Shown here in pieces: positions 30,732 to 37,821 of a DNA stretch of 64,000 nucleotides. Origin of the DNA: Cytophagaceae bacterium (GTDB lineage Bacteria; Bacteroidota; Bacteroidia; Cytophagales; Flexibacteraceae); assembly GCA_027490155.1 (NCBI GenBank), contig JAIXYP010000037.1, positions 1 through 64,000 on the forward strand. The letters run 5' to 3'. The notes under the pieces were generated by a model, which had not been told where the DNA came from, did not search any database, and saw nothing but the letters and a program-made list of their open reading frames with translations. The position numbers and the translations under genes are program-made. Position 1 is the first letter of the stretch. The number at the start of each line of letters is the position of its first letter.

Positions 30732-32597
30732 CTACCATACCAGCTGATAGCTAATGTTGGAAGACTTACCTGCATTGCTAGCCGATGCCGGAATGTTGTA
30801 AACCAATTCTTTCTGACCACCGACTGTCCGGATGATTGGCTTGAGTCCATCTAGTGGGACGATATAGAACCTGCCTTTATCTATTAGGTAGCTACCATCA
30901 GCCAGCTGGTCGATAGAGGTGCCAGCCGCCAAACGAACCCAGAGGCCTGTTGGTACGTTTTCTGCCTTGATTTTATGTGTCAAGACCTGGTTGTTTTCGC
31001 TAGGTTCCCAACGGTCGAGGATTGTAGCACCCTCGATACCATAACTAACCACAGGTGTTCCATCAGCCCTGCCATAACTATAGCCATTGAATTTATAGCG
31101 CTCAGTGAGTGTGTCAGGCCAAGCAGCATTGCTGTTAGCCAGTGGCGCAACGATCGGGTCATCCGCAAAATCGATGGAGGAGCCACGGTACCAAAGTTGT
31201 TGATTACCACCACGACTTTCCCACATGCCGGCCACATCGGCAAAATTGCCACGCCAAGCTCTTATCAGGCTGTTGTTCATTAGGTTTAACTCATAATGAG
31301 GGCCATGGGGGTTACTAATAGCAGCTGCGTAAGGCAAAGTATGGCCTCGATGTTTTACAAAACAACGCATCAATTCGGGGGCAGTGCCTGCTTCTTTAAA
31401 ATAGCCATCAGCTGGTTTTTCTTCGTTCAGACTAGACTCCTCGTTTAGGTACGTAAACCGCAGATTTGGCCCTGTGTAACCTAGGCCTAGGCCAGCTTTG
31501 TTTTTGACATTGCTCTTGAAAATAATGATCTCGAATGGCACTTTGCCACTAGCCAGAGTAGTTCCAACATCACGTCTTTTGTACCAACGTTGGTAGCCAG
31601 AGGTGTCGAACAAAGTATTACCACCGATCACTAATTTACAATAGCCATCTGCCTGAAATGTAAAGTTGTAGGTACCTGGCTCGGACACTACTAGGTTCCC
31701 TGTTATCCGTATGGCGTAATCATCGTAGAATTTGGAGAGCCGCCATGTTAACTCGTCGGTTGGTTTGGCTTCGTCTGGCTTCTTCGTCATAAAGTCACTC
31801 AGGGACCTGAACTTGCCGTACCAGGTTTGGTAATTCATGTCAGCTAGCTTGAGCGGTGTTTTGTCATAAACACTATACTTGATGTTGCGAAGGGCAACAG
31901 GCCCATGGTCTCCCTGGATCATCAGCGGTGCGCTGGCTACCTCTTGGTCCGAAACGGCACCTCTAGTAGGCCCAGTGCACTCCACATTTTCATGGATTGG
32001 ATAGTCATTGAGCATGACTTTCAGGAACTTGGCATTGCTGACTTTTCGGCCAAAGGCATCAAACCTCGGTCCACGGAACGAAATCCGGAGGGTTTGCCAT
32101 AGGCCAGGAGCCCGGCAGGCATTGACACGTGGTGCTTTGCCCTCATACCCTTCTTGCCTTTTTTCGGCTTTGGAGTTCCAGCGTTGATAGATGCCGCCGA
32201 TGTCCGAAAATGCTGGGCTGTTGTTGCCCCAGCTGTCGAAGAGCTGCACCTCGTATCTGCCCATCAGGTAGATGCCACTATTGCTACCTTTCGGCATCAT
32301 GACCTCTAACTCTAGGTCAAGGTCTCCATGGCTGAAGGTGGATGTTAAATGACCCTTTTTGTCAGCAGTCATTTTGTTGGCGAGCACACCAGTACCACTT
32401 GTGGTCACCAAGTCCTGCACGACGTTACGGTTGCTGCTAACACCCCCTACAATTTGCCAATTGGCAGTCGGGGATTGCCACTGGCTGAGATCAGTAAGTG
32501 GCATCGATACTTGACTTTGAGCATCCGCAGAGGTTGTCAAAGCTACCATTCCTAGGAGGCAAAAGCCTACCAAGATTGGTATGATTTTCTTAGTCAT
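30732..32597 (-). CDS. Secreted DUF1080 (3-keto-disaccharide hydrolase-like) protein with PA14-like domain
   Basis: A signal peptide (1 to about 26, ending TSADAQ) is followed by a DUF1080 jelly-roll domain (about 30-250). It shows LELEVMMPKGSNSGIYLMGRYE, LFDSWG, GGIYQRW, a RAPGLWQTLRI motif and VALRNIKY. Next, about 255-410, is a PA14/GLEYA-like domain (FQADGYCKLVIGGNTLFD ... KSNVKNKAGLGLGY). The C-terminal 200 residues have no recognised domain but contain Trp/Gly-rich motifs such as AWRGNFADVAGMWESRG. DUF1080 proteins bind or cleave glucoside and 3-keto-glycoside substrates. The gene lies just upstream of the propeller/azurin gene and is probably transcribed with it. Domain calls are by eye; the enzymatic activity is inferred from the family. 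Confidence 0.8.
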   Translation of the reverse strand: MTKKIIPILVGFCLLGMVALTTSADAQSQVSMPLTDLSQWQSPTANWQIVGGVSSNRNVVQDLVTTSGTGVLANKMTADKKGHLTSTFSHGDLDLELEVMMPKGSNSGIYLMGRYEVQLFDSWGNNSPAFSDIGGIYQRWNSKAEKRQEGYEGKAPRVNACRAPGLWQTLRISFRGPRFDAFGRKVSNAKFLKVMLNDYPIHENVECTGPTRGAVSDQEVASAPLMIQGDHGPVALRNIKYSVYDKTPLKLADMNYQTWYGKFRSLSDFMTKKPDEAKPTDELTWRLSKFYDDYAIRITGNLVVSEPGTYNFTFQADGYCKLVIGGNTLFDTSGYQRWYKRRDVGTTLASGKVPFEIIIFKSNVKNKAGLGLGYTGPNLRFTYLNEESSLNEEKPADGYFKEAGTAPELMRCFVKHRGHTLPYAAAISNPHGPHYELNLMNNSLIRAWRGNFADVAGMWESRGGNQQLWYRGSSIDFADDPIVAPLANSNAAWPDTLTERYKFNGYSYGRADGTPVVSYGIEGATILDRWEPSENNQVLTHKIKAENVPTGLWVRLAAGTSIDQLADGSYLIDKGRFYIVPLDGLKPIIRTVGGQKELVYNIPASASNAGKSSNISYQLVW

Positions 32598-32843
32598 GAG
32601 GTTATATCAGTTTATGCTGACAGATATTACTAAAGCGTTCGGCGCAAGATACAAATCAAATCTCGATTCTGTGTTTGAGGGTTGTAGCGCTTTCATTACG
32701 ATTGCAGATCAGGTAGAGAACCAAAATACGGCACACTGATTGTTGGTAAGCAGGTGGCTTTGATGATGATTGGCTGCCTACTCCTAACTATTTTTGTCAG
32801 CCTATCTTGTTGTGTCCATACTCTCGAGCAGATCCAATATCCT

Positions 32844-33485
32844 ATGACTGACCTCAAACAAAAGCTCAAAAAAGCTGCAAGTGCTTTGTTGCAGAATGCG
32901 CAAAGCCTCTTGCCCAAGTTTACGTTTGACTGGGAGGTGCTTACTGACAGTCTCGAAGGCTATATCGATGCCAGATTTACACTGATCAAGATTGAGCTAC
33001 GCGAATTGCTATCCCAAATGGCGGAAAAGATGGCCATTGGCTTGGTTATCATTCTGCTCGGGGGCATTGCGCTAATGTTGTTTAGCATTGGTTTGTCACT
33101 GATGCTTAATCACTTTACTGATAGCCAATATGCTGGGTTCTTGATTGTTGCTTTTATGTACACCTTAGGTGCTGCTGCTGTCGGGTACTATGCCAAGCAG
33201 AAGTTTTTTCCTGATAACGAAGATACCAAGGACAAAAAGTATAAGAAGAAACAGAGCAATGGTACCCAGTCTTCAGTAAACATGGCCACCGCTACTGGGG
33301 CAGCTGTTGTGGCATCGTCCGATATCGACAACCCAGACTGGCATGACAAATGGGACCTAATGCCCGAACAACCAGAGCCAAGTCATGAGCAAAGTATCAG
33401 TAGTCCAGATCATGGCCACGCTGATCAGACACAAGGCCACATAGATAACACCACCCACCATACGGACGATTCCCATCATCATTAG
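32844..33485 (+). CDS. Phage-holin-family (YqjE-like) membrane protein with His-rich tail
   Basis: The frame opens with a GTG at 32754, but the ATG at 32844 (MTDLKQKLKKAASALL) gives the expected N terminus and I use it. A helical region (YIDARFTLIKIELRELLSQM) precedes two membrane helices (GLVIILLGGIALMLFSIGL and GFLIVAFMYTLGAAAVGYY). This matches the small 'phage holin family'/YqjE type, which is chromosomal and not evidence of a prophage. The C-terminal 70 residues are hydrophilic and end in a histidine-rich stretch (HGHADQTQGHID, then THHTDDSHHH) that may bind metal. It is followed by another small membrane protein gene and GGGP synthase, all on the plus strand. Confidence 0.75.
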   Translation: MTDLKQKLKKAASALLQNAQSLLPKFTFDWEVLTDSLEGYIDARFTLIKIELRELLSQMAEKMAIGLVIILLGGIALMLFSIGLSLMLNHFTDSQYAGFLIVAFMYTLGAAAVGYYAKQKFFPDNEDTKDKKYKKKQSNGTQSSVNMATATGAAVVASSDIDNPDWHDKWDLMPEQPEPSHEQSISSPDHGHADQTQGHIDNTTHHTDDSHHH

Positions 33486-33531
33486 GGTTAGGTTGGATTT
33501 TAGGTCGCAATCCTGCAACTACGCTTAAACA

Positions 33532-33539
33532 TATATTTG
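33532..33539 (+). promoter_or_regulatory. Candidate -7 box (TAnnTTTG) upstream of the small membrane protein gene
   Basis: TATATTTG in the spacer after the holin-family gene, about 120 nt before the next ATG. No TTG is found at -33, so it is a weak candidate. Confidence 0.35.
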
Positions 33540-33658
33540 TTGTCTAGTCCTCTCAATTTGGCCCGATTTTGGTATTAAGACCCTTAATCATGCAGGCCTC
33601 AACCCCTAAGGCACTTAGCAGATAGCAAATATCTCTCTCATCTCGAAATCTTAAAATC

Positions 33659-34084
33659 ATGGACGATAACATCAAAACCATCAAGTCTAGCTACGACAAC
33701 GAAGTGGACAAGCTCAAATCCAAAACCCGTGACCTCAAGCAGAGCTTTACGGACCAGCTATACAACCTGACTATGGACAGCAACCAAGCCATCAAGGTTG
33801 GTGCGGCTGCCCTTGGTGTGGCTATTGGCGGTTTCTTGATCTATAAACTGGTCAGCAACGCAAAGGCTAAGAAGCAAAAGCATACCTTTGCCGAAAATGG
33901 CGCCATCGCTCTGACCAAAATGCAGAGTGCGGGCCTCGGCATCGTCGAGATGATCAAAGGTGCTATGGCGTCCTTCATCTTGAGTATCGCCCGTGATAAG
34001 ATCATCAGTTTCATTGAGCGAGTAAACCAAAAGGGTAATGACGCAGTCGAAGGTCTTGAGAACGCTGCAGCAGCGAAAAAATGA
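33659..34084 (+). CDS. Small membrane protein with N-terminal coiled coil, upstream of GGGP synthase
   Basis: A 141-aa protein. The first 35 residues are charged and likely coiled coil (YDNEVDKLKSKTRDLKQSF). One membrane helix follows (VGAAALGVAIGGFLIYKLV, about 47-65), then an amphipathic region with a second hydrophobic stretch (GIVEMIKGAMASFILSIA). This layout recalls YqjD/YqjK-type small envelope proteins encoded next to YqjE-like holin-family proteins, as here. No family was recognised with certainty. The 3' end overlaps the GGGP synthase start by 47 nt in another frame. Confidence 0.7.
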   Translation: MDDNIKTIKSSYDNEVDKLKSKTRDLKQSFTDQLYNLTMDSNQAIKVGAAALGVAIGGFLIYKLVSNAKAKKQKHTFAENGAIALTKMQSAGLGIVEMIKGAMASFILSIARDKIISFIERVNQKGNDAVEGLENAAAAKK

Positions 34085-34805
34085 GGGGCGTAAGCTCTTT
34101 GCACTCCTGATTGACCCTGACAAAGTCAGTACACAACAAGCACACCAACTACGCGACGACTGTGTCGCCCTAGCCGTTGACCTTATTTTTGTAGGTGGTA
34201 GCCTGATGACAGGCTACCAGCTACATGAGGTGGTTGCTGTCATGAAGCAGCAATCCTCCATCCCTGTTATTCTTTTTCCGGGCTCTAACCTTCACATCGA
34301 CTATGACGCCGATGCGATTTTGCTTTTAAGCCTTATCTCAGGCCGGAATGCGGACCTGCTCATCGGTCAACACGTTGTGGCTGCCCCATTGCTCAAGAAG
34401 AGTCCTCTCGAGATCCTGCCAACAGGCTATATGTTGGTCGATAGTGGCATCCAGACCACCGTTAGTTATATCAGCAACACCACTCCTATCCCGCATGACA
34501 AACCTGCGATTGCGGCCTGTACCGCCATGGCTGGTGAAATGCTGGGCCTTGGTCTGATCTACCTCGATGCTGGCAGTGGTGCTGCCAAACCCATTAGCCC
34601 GAGGATGATCGGAGCTGTGCGTCAGGCAATCGATACGCCCCTTATTGTTGGTGGTGGTCTACAGACACCCGAAATGATCCAGGATGCTCTTACGGCTGGT
34701 GCAGATGTCGTAGTCGTGGGTAACACCATCGAGAAACACCCTGAGCTATTGCCTGTGATGGTCCAGAAAGTTAAGCAGTACAACAGCCTCTTGGCCAAGG
34801 CCTAG
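34038..34805 (+). CDS. Geranylgeranylglyceryl phosphate synthase family protein (PcrB/GGGPS-like, group II)
   Basis: This TIM-barrel prenyltransferase joins a polyprenyl diphosphate to sn-glycerol-1-phosphate, the first committed step of archaeal-type ether lipids; homologues are found in Bacteroidota. The motifs are LLIDPDKVS (about 24-32), IFVGGSLMTGY, ILFPGSNLHID, YLDAGSGAAKPIS, LIVGGGLQTPEM and AGADVVVVGNTIEK, covering the phosphate- and substrate-binding loops. At 255 aa with about 24 residues before the IDPD motif, the ATG at 34038 matches the family, so the 47-nt overlap with the preceding small membrane protein gene is probably real. That overlap suggests translational coupling. A group II assignment is by pattern only; the in vivo lipid product is unknown. 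Confidence 0.88.
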   Translation: MTQSKVLRTLQQRKNEGRKLFALLIDPDKVSTQQAHQLRDDCVALAVDLIFVGGSLMTGYQLHEVVAVMKQQSSIPVILFPGSNLHIDYDADAILLLSLISGRNADLLIGQHVVAAPLLKKSPLEILPTGYMLVDSGIQTTVSYISNTTPIPHDKPAIAACTAMAGEMLGLGLIYLDAGSGAAKPISPRMIGAVRQAIDTPLIVGGGLQTPEMIQDALTAGADVVVVGNTIEKHPELLPVMVQKVKQYNSLLAKA

Positions 34806-34911
34806 ATTGGGTATTCCACTAACGGGGTTAATCTCCGACGACTTGATATTGGCCCACGGTTTTGCTAATTTTATGGTCGCTTTAGACCAAAAAGGAGGCA
34901 TTTGCCACATC

Positions 34912-36342
34912 ATGACCTACAAACCCACATCGACTTTTGCGCAAATAATTATTGTGCTTTTGCTGGTTTGCTTACCAAGTTTTTACACTAGGGCACAGAC
35001 TGATAGCTCTGCAGGTAAGGGGCTAAATTTTAATGGTTCAACTCAATTTGTTGACACTAGATTCCGGACACACCTGCGCAAGTTTACTGCTGAGTGCTGG
35101 GTCAAGAGCCCCAATGCACCAACTTTTAACCAAGGCAAAGGCCCAGTCCACTACGAGGAGAATTTTCAGTTCAATTGGGACCATGTTGCCCCTGCCGCTC
35201 AGGCTGCTGTCGTCATTCGTGATAGCACAGGTTCTTGGCAAGCGGCATCCTTTGGCACTTTGTTAGGTTCAACATGGTATCATTTGGCAGCAACTTACGA
35301 TGGCGACACGCTCAAGGCCTACGTCAACGGTAGGCTTATTACTGCCAATGGAGCGCCAACTGGACCTCCTAAACAAGAGTTTAACTCGCTCAAGATTGGT
35401 AAACACGCCAAGCTCAGTAATCCGCAATATGAGTTCTTTGAGGGTGTTGTAGACGAGGTTAGGGTTTGGAATGTAGCCCTGCCAGCTGACTCCATTCGCT
35501 TGCATATCCATCACCCGCTTCGTGGAAACGAGCCTGGTTTGGTGCTTTACTATCAACTAAACGAACTGCAAGGAGACAGCACCCTAAACTTAGTCAGTGG
35601 CCGGATGGCACCACTTATTTCCCGCCCACAGCGACAAGCGGTTGACATCCCGGTTGCCATTGGTTATAGCACCTTGGTCAACGCAGCTGATACAAGTCAG
35701 ACATACACCTTTTTTGGTGGAGAGCTTAAGGCTAAAGTCGATGCGCCAACCTCTTTGCTGATGGCCACACGCTTCGATCGTGTTTTGCAGAACTTTATAC
35801 CACCAGCAGGTTCACGTCCTCGGCCTTATATCATCAACTACTATGATGGCCAAAATGTCAACCTAACCTCCATGACTATTACCGAGCCACAACCCCGACT
35901 GGCCAACTTTGGTTCGTTGCGGACAGGATATTGGGTGGTTGGCCATAGAAGGCAGGCCTTCGAAAACATGCAGAATCTAGCTTCTGACTCTGTTCTATCT
36001 TATGATTCGACAGCAGGCATCTATCAGTTCCGTAATCCGAAGTGGGGGCAGTTGATTCTAGGCTTATCCACGGCATCACCTGTCCGCCTACCAAGTATGA
36101 GCGCAAGGCAGAACAATACCATCGACCTGCGTTATGATCATCAAGATTGGGTTGTTGCGGGCAACTATGGAAAGCTTGTGGTCTTGGACCAACTTGGAAG
36201 GGTAATGATGACTTTCAAATCATCGGACCCTGCTGCAGGGATTATGCGGATGTCATCGGACCATTTGCCAATTGGTCTCTATCATCTGATTGCCACCGAT
36301 CTCGATGGGCAAGTCCGAACTGCTCAAATGGCAAAATGGTAG
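34912..36342 (+). CDS. Secreted LamG-domain protein with T9SS-type C terminus
   Basis: The ATG at 34912 is preceded by an AGGAGG box at about 13 nt and directly begins a signal peptide (MTYKPTSTFAQIIIVLLLVC ... SFYTRAQ). The open frame upstream (to 34807) has no signal and is not used. After cleavage comes a LamG/concanavalin-A-like sandwich (LNFNGSTQFVDT ... FTAECWVKSP ... WYHLAATYDGDTLKAYVNGR ... VVDEVRVWN, to about residue 210), typical of carbohydrate or ligand binding. The last 75 residues (LVVLDQLGRVMMTFK, GLYHLIATDLDG) form a T9SS-type sorting domain. It may share the transcript of the GGGP synthase gene, which ends 107 nt before this start, but functionally they look unrelated. Confidence 0.8.
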   Translation: MTYKPTSTFAQIIIVLLLVCLPSFYTRAQTDSSAGKGLNFNGSTQFVDTRFRTHLRKFTAECWVKSPNAPTFNQGKGPVHYEENFQFNWDHVAPAAQAAVVIRDSTGSWQAASFGTLLGSTWYHLAATYDGDTLKAYVNGRLITANGAPTGPPKQEFNSLKIGKHAKLSNPQYEFFEGVVDEVRVWNVALPADSIRLHIHHPLRGNEPGLVLYYQLNELQGDSTLNLVSGRMAPLISRPQRQAVDIPVAIGYSTLVNAADTSQTYTFFGGELKAKVDAPTSLLMATRFDRVLQNFIPPAGSRPRPYIINYYDGQNVNLTSMTITEPQPRLANFGSLRTGYWVVGHRRQAFENMQNLASDSVLSYDSTAGIYQFRNPKWGQLILGLSTASPVRLPSMSARQNNTIDLRYDHQDWVVAGNYGKLVVLDQLGRVMMTFKSSDPAAGIMRMSSDHLPIGLYHLIATDLDGQVRTAQMAKW

Positions 36343-36404
36343 TCCGGGCTAGATCCTTGGTACAGCCTTGGCCTTAAAAGCCATGTCAAAGCATCATTAA
36401 AACG

Positions 36405-36440
36405 AAACACCCAAGGACCTTGATAGATGCTTGGGTGTTT
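36405..36440. terminator. Bidirectional terminator between the LamG gene and frr
   Basis: AAACACCCAAG / CTTGGGTGTTT, 11 bp and 14-nt loop, with T-rich flank on both sides. It lies between convergent genes. Confidence 0.8.
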
Positions 36441-36467
36441 TGTTTGGACTAAAAGCAGTGATTGAGA

Positions 36468-37028
36468 TCAAACAGTCATGATCTCTGCATCCTTAGCAGT
36501 AATCATGGTCTCAATCTTAACCATGCTTTCGTCGGTAAGCTTCTGGACTTTGTCCTCGGCACGTTTGACATCGTCTTCGCTAGCACCTTCTTTTAGGAGT
36601 TTGCGGAGGCTTTCGTTGGTTTCCTTACGGACATTACGGATACGTACCTTGCCAGCCTCGCCTTCGTTCTTGACCATTTTGACAAGGTCGCGACGACGTT
36701 CTTCGGTTAGGGGCGGGATGTTGATCCGGACCTGCTCGCCATCGTTTTGTGGATTGTAACCAAGGTCGCTATTCTTGATTGCCTTCTCGATCTCGTTGAT
36801 GAGTTTCTTCTCAAAGGGACGGATTAGGAGGGTCCGAGCATCTGGGGTGCTGACAGTTGCTGCCTGAGCGATTGGTGTCGGGACGCCATAATAGTCCACA
36901 ACGAGGCCATCAAGCATATTGGGCATGGCTTTGCCGGCCTTGATGCGTGCGAATTCTACACTAGTGTGTTTCAGACTCCGCTCCATTTGGTCTTTGGCGT
37001 CGTCTAGGAATAACTGGATCTCTTCCAT
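36468..37028 (-). CDS. frr: Ribosome recycling factor
   Basis: RRF releases ribosomes from mRNA after termination together with EF-G. The protein shows the helical domain I and the conserved VVDYYGVPTPIAQAATVSTPDARTLLI-type region (domain II), then the C-terminal helix with LTEERRRDLVKMVK and RIRNVRKE. At 186 aa it is standard. It lies 82 nt downstream of pyrH, the common bacterial pairing, so it is probably in one operon with it. Confidence 0.97.
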   Translation of the reverse strand: MEEIQLFLDDAKDQMERSLKHTSVEFARIKAGKAMPNMLDGLVVDYYGVPTPIAQAATVSTPDARTLLIRPFEKKLINEIEKAIKNSDLGYNPQNDGEQVRINIPPLTEERRRDLVKMVKNEGEAGKVRIRNVRKETNESLRKLLKEGASEDDVKRAEDKVQKLTDESMVKIETMITAKDAEIMTV

Positions 37029-37110
37029 ATCAATGGTGTGTAAATGAGGTGCTGTGGGGTAGTGGGTTCTATATTTAAGTAAAGTAAACCTTTGGTTGGT
37101 TGGGTAGAGC

Positions 37111-37821
37111 CTAGCCCATGGTCACGAGTGTGCCGATTTGCTCGCCCTTGACAACATTGACCAAGTTACCTGGCTTATTCATGTCGAATACAATGATCGG
37201 CAATTTGTTCTCTTTGCAGAGGGTAAAGGCGGTCATATCCATTACATTTAGTTTTTTGGCGAACACCTCCTCAAAGCCGATGGTGGCGTAGCGAGTCGCT
37301 GTTGGGTCTTTCTCAGGGTCTGCGGTATAGATACCATCAACCCTAGTTCCCTTCAGGACAACGTCTGCCTTGATCTCGATCGCCCGGAGGCTAGCAGCTG
37401 AGTCTGTCGTGAAATAAGGATTGCCAGTGCCTGCGCCAAAGATCACAACACGGCCTTTTTCGAGGTGGCGCATTGCCCTACGTCTGATGAATCGTTCGCA
37501 GACTTGGTCTACCTGAATGGCACTCATGACGCGGGTATGTAGCCCTGCATTTTCTAGAGCACCCTGGATAGCCATGCTGTTGATAAGCGTTGCCATCATG
37601 CCCATATAGTCGCCTTGTGCCTTGTCGATGCCAGCTTCTTGGGCATCCTCGCCCCTAAAGATGTTGCCGCCACCCACAACGATGGCCACTTGCACGCCTA
37701 GGCCTACGACTTTGGCAATCTCTTCGGCGTAGCTTTTAATCATCTCGGCATCGAAGCCAAATTTTTTACTGCCTGCAAGGGCTTCGCCACTCAGTTTCAG
37801 GAGGATGCGGTTATACTTCAT
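37111..37821 (-). CDS. pyrH: UMP kinase
   Basis: PyrH phosphorylates UMP to UDP. The amino-acid kinase fold is shown by [14 protein letters not shown] at the N terminus, [27 protein letters not shown], a [19 protein letters not shown] loop and [17 protein letters not shown]. At 236 aa it is typical. It is the first gene of the pyrH-frr unit and has a promoter box at 37869-37876. Confidence 0.97.

Follow-up and report, generated by a model that had tools for sequence, protein, structure and literature searches.

The locus described here raises the question of why the gene for a GGGPS-family prenyltransferase, a lipid enzyme of archaeal type, begins inside the gene that precedes it, and whether this arrangement ties ether-type lipids to the small membrane proteins encoded next to it, as the initial annotation had proposed. 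The window, the whole stretch of 64,000 nucleotides that was analyzed, is part of a 126-kb contig in a 3.99-Mb genome from the order Cytophagales, and the locus contains the following features.

32754..33485, + strand: gene for a holin-like (PF07332, YqjE-like) membrane protein; 34.8 bits against PF07332 (cut-off 28.4)
33659..34084, + strand: gene for a small coiled-coil/membrane protein (hereafter the coil protein), 141 aa, ATG start; an ORF with homologues upstream of GGGPS at 86 of 125 loci
34038..34084, + strand: 47-nt out-of-frame overlap, in which the coil protein's C-terminal tail and the N-terminal helix of GGGPS are both encoded
34038..34805, + strand: gene for a GGGPS-family (PcrB) prenyltransferase, 255 aa, ATG start; 287 bits against NF003198

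The holin-family gene that had been placed in front of the other two was borne out by its PF07332 score, and the same cut-off was passed by all ten holin-like proteins of relatives that were tested. Its listed GTG start at 32754 represents a 30-codon extension (32754-32843), and ATG 32844, giving a protein of 213 aa, appears to be the likelier start because the corresponding ORF in a genome of the same genus (G001) is also 213 aa long. The three genes, all on the same strand, would form one likely transcription unit. No terminator-like site was found on the + strand in the gap at 33486-33658; across 32500-36600 such sites were somewhat above chance (8 versus 3.9 expected, sd 2.1). A Bacteroidota-type promoter pattern had no match near the holin-like, coil or GGGPS genes of the window, in which it matched 5 times against 1.77 expected (3 of 100 shuffles reached 5), and sigma-70-like sites numbered 4 against 5.5 expected. 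Directly after GGGPS, at 34807-36342 on the + strand, lies a gene for a LamG-domain (PF13385) protein. The listed TTG start of this gene is likely to be too early, and by eye its protein ends in what resembles a type IX secretion signal. On the - strand at 36468-37821, running towards the GGGPS unit, are two genes that look by eye like frr (ribosome recycling factor) and pyrH (UMP kinase).

We examined the start of the GGGPS gene in the window and in its relatives. The coil and GGGPS ORFs share positions 34038-34084 (47 nt) in different frames, confirming the claim that a GGGPS start giving family length lies 47 nt inside the upstream gene. Within the window, the GGGPS frame contains no ATG, GTG or TTG from the upstream stop to the conserved LIDPD motif, which includes the Mg-binding Asp, and the latest possible start, TTG 34056, still leaves an overlap of 29 nt. 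The prospect that the true start lies downstream and that the overlap is an annotation artefact thus fails in the window. Among the 72 loci with an overlap of at least 8 nt, 24, the window included, have no in-frame ATG, GTG or TTG between the upstream stop and the DPD codon and so offer no later start. The other 48 do contain such a codon, as an artefact would require, but in 44 of them it occurs only within 15 nt before the DPD codon, and initiation there would cost the protein its N-terminal helix and the greater part of strand 1. The remaining 4 (L100, L118, L137 and L141) have an in-frame start codon 30-57 nt before the DPD codon, and here the overlap could be shorter. Since at 68 of the 72 loci the GGGPS frame has no start codon after the upstream stop until the last 15 nt ahead of DPD, the overlap is forced; a downstream GGGPS start was rejected, and we regard an artefact as extremely improbable. 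An ATG start was available for GGGPS at 70 of the 72 loci. In a review of the family (PMC9385802), helix alpha0 at the N-terminus is listed among the elements that GGGPS has beyond the TIM barrel, and the helix encoded by the shared stretch probably corresponds to it.

Conservation was assessed at 125 distinct GGGPS loci, comprising those of 49 relatives with GGGPS (of 59 relatives searched) and 80 named loci, less 4 duplicates. A coil homologue lay directly upstream of GGGPS at 86 loci and was absent from that place in 39. By set, the count was 30 of 45 among the relatives, whose loci were in part scored with a coil profile built from them, and 56 of 80 in the named set, which lies outside the profile except for the exact duplicates L066 and L100 and may include other close relatives. 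Protein alignments comprised 47 of the 49 GGGPS rows (L021 and L061, with a stop within the match, were excluded), 32 of 35 upstream ORFs (L011, L057 and L059 were excluded by eye as a holin-like protein, a triose-phosphate isomerase and an unrelated protein, respectively) and, in a further alignment, 33 of the 56 coil proteins of the named set (at most 200 aa, ATG start). Four upstream-ORF rows were begun after the listed TTG, by 2 codons in L009 and L010, by 23 in L024 and by 8 in L064. Of the 86 junctions, 72 were overlaps of 8-89 nt, 10 were overlaps of 1 or 4 nt, and 4 were gaps of 3-40 nt. In all 72 long overlaps the length was 2 mod 3, that is, a single phase. The overlap is beyond chance, judging from the recurrence of both pair and phase through Cytophagales.

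The arrangement is largely confined to this order. All 10 Chitinophagaceae/Saprospiraceae loci were without a coil gene upstream of GGGPS. A class-wide sample of 159 genomes contained GGGPS in 142 (E <= 1e-30) and a coil match in 11 (E <= 0.001), and the two genes were adjacent in 6 of 6 Cytophagales versus 2 of 136 genomes with GGGPS outside the order. The two exceptions were G203, with a 29-nt overlap in the same phase, and G083, with a 189-nt gap; 40 class loci were taken in list order from the 136, and these two were added for their coil matches. Gene order, proposed as something to be sought across Bacteroidota, is therefore conserved in much of Cytophagales, but its conservation across the phylum is not supported. 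Elsewhere in Bacteroidia, GGGPS is often preceded directly by a gene for a 4'-phosphopantetheinyl transferase, as in 10 of 10 neighbours picked by length (~200 aa; L159, L160, L162, L168, L173, L179, L182, L185, L188 and L189).

How such an overlap could arise and persist is suggested by the survey of 2.66 million gene pairs by Huber et al. 2023 (PMC10666635). Overlaps of 4, 1 and 8 nt are reported there as the commonest, and those of ~10-60 nt as having about a fourfold lower frequency than short ones; length alone does not make an overlap rare. According to the survey, long overlaps originate when the first gene loses its stop codon, and in the present phase they are retained because overlaps of 2 or 5 nt are impossible. 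The present overlap is of this known kind, the long phase-1 unidirectional overlap of prokaryotes: both genes lie on the same strand, the length is 2 mod 3, and the upstream stop falls inside the downstream ORF. What goes beyond the overlaps of that survey, as far as it describes them, is that one overlap can here be traced through an order: its length drifts, in one Dyadobacter clade it has become 4 nt, and in Hymenobacteraceae the stop is fixed. The single phase, the drifting length and the Dyadobacter switch together fit the route given in PMC10666635. A survey of the open-licence literature, judged by titles and the beginnings of abstracts, found no paper on this overlap.

A quick tree of the 125 GGGPS sequences, from which the overlap columns were excluded and in which 47 of 122 inner branches were left open, required 19 changes of junction type versus 45.7 with shuffled labels. 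The 4-nt junctions were found at seven Dyadobacter loci and in one Cyclobacteriaceae metagenome-assembled genome, and their phase differs from that of the long overlaps; the clade of the seven Dyadobacter rows sits among long-overlap rows, together with one row without a coil gene.

The constant phase of the long overlaps also fits a +1 shift, by which programmed frameshifting at the coil stop would yield a membrane-anchored coil-GGGPS fusion, and the window has an A-rich AAA AAA TGA at that stop. The context is not conserved, however: the nine bases ending in the stop vary widely over the 72 loci, the commonest being shared by 5, and all three stops occur (33 TAA, 29 TGA, 10 TAG). Further evidence against a fusion comes from the ATG starts of GGGPS mentioned above and from the other phase of the Dyadobacter junctions. 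Frameshifting was rejected as there is no conserved slippery site or stop context, and we consider it very improbable.

We investigated potential constraint on the coil stop codon in GGGPS genes from 15 Hymenobacteraceae (nucleotide identity 62-87%), the family to which this test applies, the window's own genus being represented by one near-identical relative (98%). The upstream TGA was at one fixed place in these genes. Its T was fixed inside GGGPS in 15 of 15 rows while the GGGPS codon containing it varied among TAT, CAT and CTT, and the same loci prefer TAC over TAT (692 versus 230, counted in all ORFs of at least 200 codons on both strands, unfiltered). Among 252 ungapped codon columns, only two were all T at the third base in the 15 rows, namely that of the stop's T and an ATT column, and of the 22 columns in which all rows have a two-fold NNY codon, none was all T. 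Fixation of the stop's T despite a varying GGGPS codon indicates that both frames are read and that selection acts on the upstream stop in Hymenobacteraceae. We read this as the upstream stop being held by selection inside GGGPS, which could benefit translational coupling just as it could keep the tail from lengthening.

Tight translational coupling had been proposed on the strength of the overlap, by which ribosomes ending the coil gene would re-initiate at, or unwind, the GGGPS start and so fix the ratio of the two proteins. Retention of the overlap through much of the order and the constrained stop in Hymenobacteraceae agree with such a selected function, as do the 1-nt or 4-nt junctions in 10 of 86 loci; those in the seven Dyadobacter loci and the Cyclobacteriaceae genome suggest that coupling may be mildly favoured. 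Overlapping pairs are also reported often to encode partners in a complex (PMC10666635). In the same source, however, the architecture for termination-reinitiation spans -8 to +6 nt, reinitiation fades within ~20 nt of spacing, and long overlaps typically come without coupling. The window junction, at -47 nt, is outside this range and unlike known reinitiation architecture, nearly all of the 8-89-nt overlaps are outside it as well, and 4 of 86 loci have gaps. Tight coupling is not supported, and we consider selected coupling unlikely, though not negligible. As for the start context, A was present at -6 of the GGGPS ATG in 67% of the 70 long-overlap starts, and at the same codon position nearby in 47-57% (several places); because these nearby places also run high in A, a Kozak-like signal of the kind described in PMC6847099 is inseparable from the upstream frame. 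The window start has A at -6, -12 and -13 and G at -3.

The coil gene was also followed away from GGGPS. Profile search detected it in 41 of 59 relatives, of which 32 have it next to GGGPS, 7 have it away from GGGPS and 2 have no detected GGGPS (G005 and G009, the match in G009 being at a contig end). Thus the genes adjoin in 32 of the 39 relatives with both, and no coil gene was detected in 10 of the 49 that have GGGPS. A holin-like ORF preceded the coil gene by at most 400 nt in 76 of 86 coil-GGGPS loci, as detected with a holin profile built from ten Pfam-confirmed members that are themselves among the 76. Where the coil gene lies away from GGGPS, a holin-like ORF was directly before it in 8 of 8 genomes examined (the 7 plus G005). 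This pairing without an adjacent GGGPS indicates that the steady unit is the holin-like gene plus the coil gene; GGGPS so appears to be a common third gene, and either side can apparently do without it. The holin-like protein would then be the primary partner of the coil protein, with GGGPS as a frequent passenger.

These counts bear on two further proposals. One, the claimed link between ether-type lipids and the membrane proteins, is weakened by the holin-like/coil pairs that stand away from GGGPS, one of them in a genome without detected GGGPS, and by the GGGPS relatives without a detected coil gene, but the frequent adjacency where both genes occur is to be set against this. The other is recruitment of GGGPS by the coil protein into a functional complex at the membrane, which would explain the conserved neighbourhood. 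The product of GGGPS is a lipid, and the coil protein has a hydrophobic helix, judged by eye, which together with the adjacency speak for recruitment. The separate genes, the GGGPS genomes without a detected coil gene and the two coil genomes without a detected GGGPS speak against it, and GGGPS enzymes are reported to purify as soluble proteins (PMC9385802). Recruitment is, in our estimate, improbable.

The coil protein itself matched no known family closely. The window protein had no Pfam match up to E 1 and no NCBIfam match under E 0.02; across 32 coil members, no Pfam family matched more than one, and two NCBIfam families matched 2 each (best TIGR04211, E 2.3e-5). Its predicted structure consists of three helices (2-38, 43-73 and 93-139) at low confidence (mean pLDDT 72.1, pTM 0.30), and the model had no Foldseek match with E under 0.001. 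Membership of the YqjD/DUF883 family was rejected, since the coil protein had no DUF883 match in these Pfam searches. There is a likeness to the YqjD-YqjE operon of Proteobacteria (E. coli; PA3040-3042, as presented in PMC11302039), which likewise joins a holin-like YqjE-type gene to one for a small membrane protein. In that report, however, the YqjD-like PA3040 is numbered before the YqjE-like PA3041, whereas the Cytophagales coil gene follows the holin-like gene, and its product differs further in lacking a DUF883 match and in being followed by GGGPS. Judged by these searches, the coil protein is an undescribed family conserved in Cytophagales.

The identity of the enzyme proved solid. The window GGGPS exceeded the cut-offs of NF003198 (287 versus 247 bits) and PF01884 (129.9 versus 23.9), was the single match in the genome (E <= 0.001), and had as its best solved relative 4jej (E 1.3e-57), which we take to be the group IIb GGGPS of Flavobacterium johnsoniae. 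It resembles that enzyme in profile score, in the Mg-binding Asp and in two active-site Tyr residues. The Mg-binding Asp is D26, invariant in 47 of 47 rows and corresponding to D13 of AfGGGPS and D25 of MtGGGPS (PMC9385802). The active-site residues Y131 and Y175 are present, and D177 replaces the Glu of the Tyr/Tyr/Glu triad, which is Y134/Y178/E180 in MtGGGPS and the Glu of which is termed strictly conserved in the same review. This Asp was found at 120 of 125 loci and at 32 of 43 class loci, indicating that the Glu is not strictly conserved in Bacteroidia. The enzyme also differs from group IIb in the phosphate loop (beta8), where the window has VVVGN, with Asn at the site of Thr in group II (4jej and 4mm1 have GT; Asn216 occurs in group I); by text pattern, this Asn was present at 109 of 125 loci. 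Having Asp for the triad Glu, the protein is placed in the GGGPS family, close to group IIb but as an Asp variant and not as a strict group IIb enzyme.

Bacteroidetes GGGPS homologues are reported to be active with G1P in vitro (PMC7852524). In the window's genome, PF13685 (G1P dehydrogenase-type) had no match over the cut-off and three below it, two of which are 3-dehydroquinate synthases and the third L146; the test is blunt, as 29 of 59 relatives pass the cut-off and genomes such as that of E. coli also match. A UbiA-family prenyltransferase is encoded on another contig than GGGPS (L149:1396-2328; G000 contig C56). Nearest to the PRK12872 model (269.7 bits, cut-off 288), it could be DGGGP synthase, the second ether-forming enzyme. 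It is conceivable, and we think quite improbable, that the three genes are an envelope operon in which the coil protein would bring the Asp-variant GGGPS to the membrane, where the enzyme would build an ether lipid from a different glycerol phosphate, perhaps G3P, there being no recognisable G1P dehydrogenase, with the overlap setting the ratio.

The explanation that we hold to be probable is an overlap that arose once by stop loss and persisted by virtue of its phase, with plausible co-transcription and weak coupling at most. We infer that loss of the coil stop codon, in the common ancestor of Cytophagales or close to it, extended the coil reading frame into the start of GGGPS, in the other frame. 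Shortening an overlap of 2 mod 3 to an efficient junction of 4 or 1 nt would require a change of frame, and hence such overlaps would have persisted. The hydrophilic coil tail would drift and its stop move, except where selection holds the stop, as in Hymenobacteraceae, and the N-terminal helix of GGGPS would tolerate dual coding. Translation of GGGPS would begin at a start of its own among the final codons of the coil gene, at ATG 34038 or, with lower probability, at TTG 34056. Tight reinitiation is unlikely at 47 nt, and passing ribosomes may help to keep the GGGPS start open.

The overlap is real, old and conserved, and it looks more like an inherited quirk of gene packing than proof of a partnership between a lipid and membrane proteins; the holin-like, coil and GGGPS order should not be taken as a link to an ether-lipid pathway. 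It offers a single long out-of-frame overlap that can be traced through many families, with codon-level evidence from one of them that the stop is under selection, and the locus marks an undescribed membrane protein family. For the enzyme, the Glu-to-Asp change in most of the sampled Bacteroidia GGGPS homologues raises the question of whether they use G1P or G3P.
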